Shown: piece by piece, positions 47,613 to 61,480 of the stretch | Layout of the letters: the number at the start of each line of letters is the position of its first letter | Position numbering within the stretch: position 1 is the first letter of the stretch | DNA from: Cryobacterium sp. Y11 | Lineage (GTDB): Bacteria; Actinomycetota; Actinomycetes; Actinomycetales; Microbacteriaceae | Assembly: GCF_002929535.1 (NCBI RefSeq) | Contig: NZ_PJJO01000048.1 | Coordinates: 1-64,000 of the forward strand | Length of the DNA stretch: 64,000 nt | Reading direction: 5' to 3' | Program-made: the position numbers and the translations under genes | The notes under the pieces: model-generated | Seen by the model: the letters and a program-made list of their open reading frames with translations, nothing else | Told to the model about the DNA's origin: nothing | Database searches by the model: none

Positions 47613-48308
47613 CTAGGTGAGCGAGAAGAGAAAAATCGGCGCGACGATCCGGGTGATATCGCTTGACCCCTGATCGGATTGGGCAATGACGCCGTAAGGC
47701 AATTCCATCCCGACGTCGGCGATGATGCCCGGGAATGACGTTGGCAGGTCGAGCGCCACGGAGCGCTGGCCGAACGCATCGTCAACGTGCACGCGGTTCG
47801 CATCTTGCCCGCTCGCGACAAAATCAAACGAATCTCCGACGCTTGTGCCGTCGACCGAGGCGATGGCGAGGCCGCCGTCTGTGGTGGCCGCCGTCACCCA
47901 AACGCTGAATGCGGGCTTATAGAGGCTTACCGCCCCGGTGGGCATTGCCTCGCTCGAGTACCGGTTTACCACGATGTCGAACCCACCCCACGACGTCCCC
48001 TCCATCTCGGGGTAGTGATTCGAGCCGTCTTGGTGATGCGTGGTCAGGGGCTCGCCGAGTATCTCGATGGCGGCAGCAACGGCTTCGTCACCGTTCTCGG
48101 AATATCGAAGCGCGAGAAGCACGGTGCCGTTCTCATCGACGACGTCGGTCGTCTCCGCTCCAAGACGGATGCTGGTGGGCTCGGCTGGTGCCGTCGCTTC
48201 GGACGAAACCGGGTTGACAGATGGGGGAGTAACGGGCGGCGTGCCCGCGCAGGCAGACAATGAAGCCACCAAAACGATCATGGAGATCACAGCGAGTGGT
48301 TTACGGAT
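47613..48308 (-). CDS. Lipoprotein of unknown function, apparent ATC start
   Basis: The first canonical start in this frame is a GTG at 48290, but starting there cuts off the basic n-region of the signal peptide. Starting at the ATC at 48308 gives Met-Arg-Lys-Pro, a hydrophobic core and a lipobox SLSAC with Cys at residue 20. A run of six G lies exactly 5 nt upstream of the ATC. The mature 212-residue part is Thr/Ala/Val-rich with no recognised domain. The start is my inference; if wrong, the gene is damaged at its 5' end. Confidence 0.6.
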   Translation of the reverse strand: MRKPLAVISMIVLVASLSACAGTPPVTPPSVNPVSSEATAPAEPTSIRLGAETTDVVDENGTVLLALRYSENGDEAVAAAIEILGEPLTTHHQDGSNHYPEMEGTSWGGFDIVVNRYSSEAMPTGAVSLYKPAFSVWVTAATTDGGLAIASVDGTSVGDSFDFVASGQDANRVHVDDAFGQRSVALDLPTSFPGIIADVGMELPYGVIAQSDQGSSDITRIVAPIFLFSLT

Positions 48309-48472
48309 AGCGTCCCCCCAAAATAGTCAAGGTGAACAAATTCTCCTCACCCACGACTCACGCTATCGTGCTGTGAAGAAATCCATATCGTTTGCGCCCC
48401 ACTCGGGACCGGCGCCAAACGAGGCGACTATCGTCACGATCCACACGGCCAACGGCCGCGCCGGCAACCGGA

Positions 48473-58845: not shown

Positions 58846-59316
58846 TTACTTCGATTCGAAGAAGGGCGAATCTGCCGGCCAAAGTTCTCCGCCCATATCC
58901 GTCTGGGCCGTCAGGAGATCTTTGGGGTTTTCGCTTCCAACAACCCACAGGTCACCGACGAGGAAAAGGCCAGTCTCGGGGCTGGCCGCGTTGAGTTGCA
59001 GGAGACCGTCCAAATCGGCTTGAGTAGCGAAAGTATTCAGACCGTTTTCACTGTTGCGGCACACGCCCGATTCAAACGAACCGGACATGACGTTCTCCGT
59101 GACTACCCATTCACAGGGCAGACCCGTAGCGATGTAGGCCTCGTGCAGTTCATCCAAGGTGAGCGTCCCTTTAGGAGCGACAGTATCCGGCGCTGTCGTT
59201 TGGGTTTCTGGCGTTGCTACGGCGGTCTCGGATGATTCCGGCAGTGACGACGCTGTGCAGCCTGCGAGAGCGGCGACGACGATCGTTATAACGGCTAACG
59301 CAAGTGACGTGCGGAT
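58846..59316 (-). CDS. Lipoprotein of unknown function, apparent ATC start
   Basis: The frame has no ATG or GTG before residue 54, and the only TTG (59157) lies after the signal peptide. Starting at the ATC at 59316 gives Met-Arg-Thr-Ser, a hydrophobic core and the lipobox ALAGC with Cys at residue 20. A GGGGG run lies exactly 5 nt upstream. The mature part (136 residues) has two Cys (LPCEWVV, GVCRNSENG). No family is recognised. The alternative is that a GTG two codons upstream mutated to GTC. Confidence 0.6.
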   Translation of the reverse strand: MRTSLALAVITIVVAALAGCTASSLPESSETAVATPETQTTAPDTVAPKGTLTLDELHEAYIATGLPCEWVVTENVMSGSFESGVCRNSENGLNTFATQADLDGLLQLNAASPETGLFLVGDLWVVGSENPKDLLTAQTDMGGELWPADSPFFESK

Positions 59317-59402
59317 GGTGACCCCCAGAGCAGATGAGGACGCCTTGAGCGCCCGACTCAGTTAAGACACTATCGCGCCATCAATGTTGGCGGCGCTGCG
59401 GT

Positions 59403-60804: not shown

Positions 60805-60887
60805 GAGAGCATCGCCGTCGCCGATACGTCCCCGTCGAAGTGGCCATCGGGCCAGACGGCCATCAGCGATGAACTCGAAGTTTCAGC

Positions 60888-60905
60888 GTCCCGCACGACG
60901 TTCCC
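60888..60905 (+). repeat. 18-nt element copy J (exact consensus, hairpin)
   Basis: GTCCCGCACGACGTTCCC. CCCGC (60890-60894) pairs perfectly with GCGGG (60909-60913). Confidence 0.65.
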
Positions 60906-60954
60906 CTCGCGGGCGCGACGGTCTAAATGTGCAGGCGGCGGCGCGGATCAAATT

Positions 60955-61480
60955 GTGTCCGTTGACGTCCGCCTCCTCGCCGAATGCGACGACCGGGACC
61001 GGCGCTCCTCCGTCCGCCGCGGGAAACCCCTCTGCCTCATCGGCGACTCCGGCACGGGGAAGTCCCACCTCCTCATCGGGCTCGGCACCGCTGCGGCCGA
61101 GAAGGGGTTCCGGGTGAAATACACCCTCGCCCCGAGGCTTGTGAACGAGCTCGTGGAAGCCGCGGACGAGAAGAACCTCGCTCGCACCATCGCCCGCTAC
61201 GGCAGCGTCGACCTCCTCATGATCGACGAGCTCGGATACATGGAATTGGACCGCCGCGGCGCCGAGCTGCTCTTCCAGATTCTGACTGAGAGGGAGGAGA
61301 ACAACTCCATCGCGATCGCCTCGAAACGAGTCCTTCTCCGGCTGGACGAAGACCTTCACCGACCCCAGACTGTGTGCTGCGATCGTGGACCGCCTCACGT
61401 TCAACGGCACCATCATCGAAACGGGACCGACTCCTACCGACTCGCCCACACCCGCCAGCAGCGGAGCAACAGCCTCTGAT
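60955..61480 (+). pseudogene. istB: Remnant of IS21-family helper ATPase gene
   Basis: A truncated IstB. Walker A GDSGTGKSH, then KYTLAPRLVNELVEAADEKN, Walker B DLLMIDELGYMELDRRGAELL and [17 protein letters not shown] are intact. One extra base near 61327 shifts the frame; the expected [19 protein letters not shown] and [15 protein letters not shown] are read in another phase. The N-terminal DNA-binding part is unrecognisable. No istA or terminal repeats are present. Confidence 0.9.

Follow-up and report, generated by a model that had tools for sequence, protein, structure and literature searches.

Where does translation begin in a lipoprotein gene that has no canonical start codon before its lipobox? 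The question is raised by two genes lying 11 kb apart in the window (the whole stretch of DNA analysed, 64,000 nucleotides from Cryobacterium sp. Y11), each of which reads ATC at the place where its signal peptide would begin. To our knowledge, proof of a start at AUC or AUU exists for few bacterial genes, and genes of this kind are overlooked by gene finders limited to ATG, GTG, and TTG. The present pair of unrelated lipoprotein genes, of which one keeps the codon in ten genomes, provides clean test cases.

Two Lipoprotein Genes With ATC at the Proposed Start

The features of the two loci are as follows, with coordinates given in the window.

47613 to 48308, minus strand: lipoprotein gene 1, 231 codons plus stop, with Cys20
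48306 to 48308, minus strand: ATC, proposed start codon of gene 1, from sequence and orthologue comparison
48314 to 48319, minus strand: GGGGGG, proposed Shine-Dalgarno (SD) of gene 1, calculated duplex of -9.3 kcal/mol
48360 to 48371, minus strand: GCACGATAGCGT, putative promoter-like box upstream of gene 1, from sequence
58846 to 59316, minus strand: lipoprotein gene 2, 156 codons plus stop, with Cys20
59314 to 59316, minus strand: ATC, proposed start codon of gene 2, from sequence and orthologue comparison
59322 to 59326, minus strand: GGGGG, proposed SD of gene 2, calculated duplex with the anti-SD of -9.1 kcal/mol
59367 to 59379, minus strand: GGCGCGATAGTGT, putative promoter-like box of gene 2, with TAGTGT as a possible -10, from sequence

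A preliminary description of this DNA had stated that gene 2 lacks a canonical start before its lipobox, that ATC at 59316 would make the lipobox Cys residue 20, and that both genes share five or six G, a 5-nt spacer, and ATC-CGY; all of this was confirmed on the sequence. On the minus strand, gene 2 reads GGGGG (59326 to 59322), TCACC, ATC (59316 to 59314), and CGC, and gene 1 reads GGGGGG, ACGCT, ATC (48308 to 48306), and CGT. Counted from ATC, Cys is residue 20 both in the LAGC lipobox of gene 2 and in the LSAC lipobox of gene 1. In gene 2, 15 codons separate the upstream stop from ATC; neither these nor the codons from ATC to the lipobox Cys include ATG, GTG, or TTG. In gene 1, the corresponding stretch after the upstream TGA has six codons, none of them a canonical start. 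A GTG and an ATG do lie inside the gene 1 signal peptide; a start at either would leave the protein with no basic n-region.

The alignment between the two proteins is confined to the signal peptide, and neither protein has a Pfam or NCBIfam family above cut-off. Their structure models, with a mean pLDDT of 30.0 for gene 1 (4 rows) and 42.9 for gene 2 (sequence alone), were too poor for use. Near gene 2, on the plus strand, lies a frame (60805 to 61479) that appears, from a motif, to resemble the ATPase of an IS21-type element.

Orthologues of the Two Genes

Gene 1 was searched for in 57 genomes of the genus, 19 of which gave a match (33 rows). Twelve full-length copies, from 10 genomes and with identities of 56% or more, entered the count; the 21 rows excluded were either fragments (e.g., L011, L021, and L022) or else homologues and paralogues at a greater distance (at most 43% identity). 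At the start place, behind GGGGG, seven copies read ATC and five read ATT, each codon confined to its own subclade, and the frames are open. The three full-length copies in a single genome (L008, L020, and L029 in G022) all read ATT. Residues 1 to 3 (I/M-R-K), at the N-terminus of the signal peptide, are invariant among the copies, as is Cys20 in all 12, and the codon directly before ATY varies between Ala, Arg, Leu, His, and Pro. Between the window copy and the 11 others, dN/dS is 0.17 to 0.33 (dS 0.44 to 1.62), and gene 1 is under purifying selection. Taken by itself, the kept third-base pyrimidine carries no significance, since only C or T also occurs in 9 of the gene's 52 invariant fourfold columns, and it could be due to passive retention.

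Outside this set, canonical codons appear among the loci read. Distant homologues within the genus read ATG (L012, L013, and L014; L015 is unclear), and paralogues have ATG (L016, L017, L024, L028, and L030) or GTG (L023) near the start place. The family search, in which 6 of 249 family genomes matched, the own genome included, gave L087 to L093 outside the genus, and of the four read among these, L087 and L093 have ATG and L092 has TTG (L088 is unclear). With canonical codons (ATG, GTG, or TTG) in these deeper homologues, the ATY of gene 1 looks derived.

The genus search with gene 2 matched 14 of the 57 genomes in 16 rows, and the start was read in eight copies, the other eight rows being fragments or weak matches. 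Four copies read ATC (G000, G034, G047, and G026), one reads GTG (G048), and three read ATG (G007, G021, and G013). ATC is limited to copies of 95 to 96% identity and to the interrupted copy of G026, and the copies with GTG or ATG are more distant. At the aligned place, the G007 homologue has GGGGG, 5 nt, and ATG, and the G048 homologue has GGGGGAGG followed by GTG; a homologue from the family search, L096, has ATG (L095 is unclear). Cys20 is invariant in the seven copies aligned, and the G026 copy, which stands outside the alignment, has Tyr. The G026 gene is split into parts about 1.5 kb apart (L034 and L045, contig 1, 733486 to 735510), with the arrangement of five G, 5 nt, and ATC intact.

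These comparisons bear on the reading that the start codons were lost by mutation, so that both genes are undergoing silencing and ATC is a dead ATG. The canonical codons of the deeper homologues speak for such a loss, as does the G026 copy of gene 2, split and without its lipobox Cys. Against it stand the ATY of every gene 1 copy, divided by subclade between ATC and ATT, together with the open frames and low dN/dS of this gene. The preliminary description had proposed that a pattern found only twice, with ATG or GTG in orthologues, would mark simple start-codon loss: for gene 1 neither codon is found in the 12 copies, and for gene 2 they are found in four of the eight. Loss of the start is accordingly improbable as an account of both genes. 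It may apply to gene 2 taken by itself, because ATC is seen only in close or split copies and the codon-usage score of the gene is low (0.04). The shared non-canonical start that the preliminary description had offered as one interpretation gains support from the ATY found in all 12 copies of gene 1 (10 genomes) and in 4 of the 8 gene 2 copies read; its other interpretation, a shared leader cassette, fared differently (see below).

Frequency of the Pattern in the Window, Genome, and Genus

The window holds two occurrences of GGGGGNNNNNATCCGY against 0.18 expected, and 2 of 100 shuffles reach this number. Across the genome, where the preliminary description had called for a search, 13 sites were found against about 11 expected when the shuffle rate of the window is scaled to 4.03 Mb. 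The other 11 sites were all read, without a signal peptide being found behind any of them; L070, one of these sites, heads a putative coding frame of 93 codons without an upstream canonical codon. Since the count is near chance, the pattern is not enriched, and the anomaly lies in the missing canonical start.

The G-run itself is unexceptional. Runs of five G stand 4 to 8 nt before the ATG of other lipoprotein genes in the genus (L102, L109, L016, L017, L024, and L036 to L038), and G5 at this distance is an ordinary SD in Cryobacterium. The G-run and its spacing therefore need no special cause.

How rarely a lipoprotein gene lacks a canonical start was surveyed in 644 kb of the 4.03-Mb genome, comprising the window and 29 stretches of 20 kb. 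A canonical start heads 24 of the 27 lipobox ORFs; the three exceptions are gene 1, gene 2, and an ORF resembling a multi-helix membrane protein, in which the lipobox looks like a chance occurrence. A stricter version of the survey also returned 27 lipobox ORFs, of which gene 1 and the membrane-protein-like ORF are startless, gene 2 having failed its codon-usage filter. Lipoproteins may be a good hunting ground for unusual starts, as the lipobox constrains where the protein can begin.

A wider class of such genes was considered and rejected, as neither of two pattern searches gave further sites with a signal peptide. The pattern GGGGGN{4,6}ATYCGNAAR matches 22 times in the 57 genomes, against 7 for the backward control; gene 1 accounts for 12 of the 22, and none of the remaining 10 leads into a signal peptide. 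A pattern with a looser SD has two matches in the own genome, gene 1 and one internal site. Both patterns require AAR at codon 3 and are thus blind to gene 2.

Strength of the Proposed Shine-Dalgarno and Candidate Starts Upstream

Calculated SD pairing with the 16S tail ranges from -6.8 to -9.9 kcal/mol across all 16 ATY copies of the two genes. Canonical lipoprotein starts have a median of -6.2 kcal/mol (21 of 24 scored), and -8.4 kcal/mol is reached by 2.2% of 3000 random sites and by 2.4% of 543 ATYCGY sites.

Upstream of ATY, the gene 1 copies offer no consistent canonical start. TTG or GTG lies in frame within 15 codons in 8 of the 12 copies, at -4, -5, -10, -11, -14, or -15, with no single place common to them, and the window copy and L029 have no canonical codon at all before the upstream stop. 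The leaders also contain indels of 1 to 3 nt, so there is no common frame that begins further upstream.

A more regular candidate is an in-frame CTG at -4 (TTG in one copy), from which translation would run through CTG GGG GCT NNN ATY and Ile would be an ordinary residue 5. Of the 12 copies of gene 1, 10 have CTG there and one more has TTG, and three of the four gene 2 copies that bear ATC also have CTG; all 12 gene 1 copies keep GGG at -3, and 10 keep GCT at -2. The letters kept before the gene 1 ATY are those expected of an SD, and they are compatible with a CTG start as well. However, the window copy of gene 1 reads TGG at -4 and the G026 copy of gene 2 reads TCG. No SD lies ahead of this codon, where the calculated energy is +1.2 to -3.3 kcal/mol, and the residue before Ile varies freely whereas Ile-Arg-Lys is invariant. 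CTG is itself non-canonical, so the anomaly would persist. Initiation at -4 is thus unlikely, though less so than a loss of the start codon.

Leader and Promoter-Like Box

The interpretation of a leader cassette supposes that a promoter box, leader, CTGGGGG, and ATCCG were moved between gene 1 and gene 2 as a shared cassette or recombination site. Its basis is a GGCRCGATAGYGT-like box before both window genes, with a gap to the start codon of 51 nt in gene 1 and 50 nt in gene 2; among orthologues, the box of gene 1 is the upstream limit of leader conservation. The stretch between box and SD (39 to 40 nt) argues otherwise, since that of gene 2 is no nearer to the three gene 1 leaders compared, out of 12, than shuffled sequence is (p 0.15 to 0.78). 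The proteins align solely across the signal peptide, and the consensus fold of the leader has only four pairs. The exact box has 26 matches in the 57 genomes (9 with the backward control), of which 4 belong to gene 1, 3 to gene 2, and 19 lie elsewhere. A cassette, for which the preliminary description had allowed, is therefore very improbable and was rejected, and the box is read as a putative promoter-like element.

One further site of the box may be mentioned. In L196 (G053, contig 13, 264778 to 264790), the 25 bases before the gene 2 box, the box itself, and a few bases after it recur, followed by divergence. The gene 2 search gave no match in G053.

Three other candidates were rejected. 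Phase variation through the G-run was set aside with at least five G present in 12 of 12 gene 1 copies; the length from TTGTTCACC to ATC is the same in the window copy of gene 1, which has six G, as in the copy of its nearest orthologue, which has five. Assembly error was dismissed as the ATY codon recurs across 10 separate genomes, and a leader RNA structure on account of the four-pair fold.

A Probable Weak Start Codon Behind a Strong Shine-Dalgarno

Most likely, judging from the sequence comparisons, ATY is a real and derived start and the G-run is its ordinary SD. AUC or AUU would be decoded as Met by the initiator tRNA, which would yield the signal peptides MRKPLAVISMIVLVASLSAC and MRTSLALAVITIVVAALAGC. 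The run of five or six G at ordinary spacing would serve as a strong SD that makes the weak codon usable, and the weak codon would in turn cap expression. By analogy with infC, sigR, and ccpN, both genes would also be sensitive to IF3. Taken together, it is quite probable that both lipoprotein genes start at AUC (AUU in some orthologues), with a strong SD compensating for a weak codon that limits output and renders the genes IF3-sensitive. Initiation at AUY, low output, control by IF3, and any benefit of such an arrangement are what we infer here, and the conserved odd start of gene 1 points to a start kept weak on purpose and perhaps regulated, and not to a gene in decay.

Cryobacterium is a genus known for cold habitats. 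A broader and rather doubtful extension is that it places a small set of lipoproteins under IF3 by means of AUC or AUU and strong SDs, so that the cell surface tracks the state of translation, for example in the cold.

Comparison With Known Non-Canonical Starts

A search of open PMC papers naming Cryobacterium gave two, neither of which, by its title, deals with non-canonical starts, and parallels come from other genes and genera. In E. coli, the AUU start of pcnB reportedly limits expression; pcnB is a poly(A) polymerase gene and differs in this from the lipoprotein genes.

The nearest parallel within the genus is infC. The infC search matched 55 of the 57 genomes, and in all 31 loci read (L117 to L147; L117 of the own genome lies at C40:23112-23321, minus strand) the aligned start is ATC, preceded by AGAGGAG or a sequence close to it. 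That infC can have a non-canonical start is no novelty: it is ATC in Streptomyces and ATT in E. coli (PMC5472188) and AUA in S. aureus (PMC13009471), and IF3 discriminates against non-canonical starts (PMC5472188). Like gene 1 and gene 2, infC has AUY behind a clear SD; unlike these lipoprotein genes, it encodes an essential translation factor with self-feedback (IF3 autoregulation).

Streptomyces sigR starts at GTC in 32 and GTT in 2 of 34 species, has a strong SD, and is repressed by IF3 (PMC5472188). It is likewise actinobacterial and combines a conserved non-canonical start with a strong SD, but its codon is GTC rather than ATC, and its regulation is experimental whereas that of the Cryobacterium genes is one we infer. 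The S. aureus genes cvfC1 (AUU) and ccpN (AUA) pair conserved non-canonical starts with strong SDs, and together with citZ (AUA) they reach, in poor medium, about 10% of the expression seen with AUG (PMC13009471). These staphylococcal genes share the conserved AUN start with a strong SD; they differ in belonging to another phylum, in their extended SD, and in having been proven by ribosome profiling and reporters. Because the anatomy of gene 1 and gene 2 is the same as that of infC, sigR, and cvfC1/ccpN, both lipoprotein genes may by analogy be taken as weakly translated and open to control by IF3.
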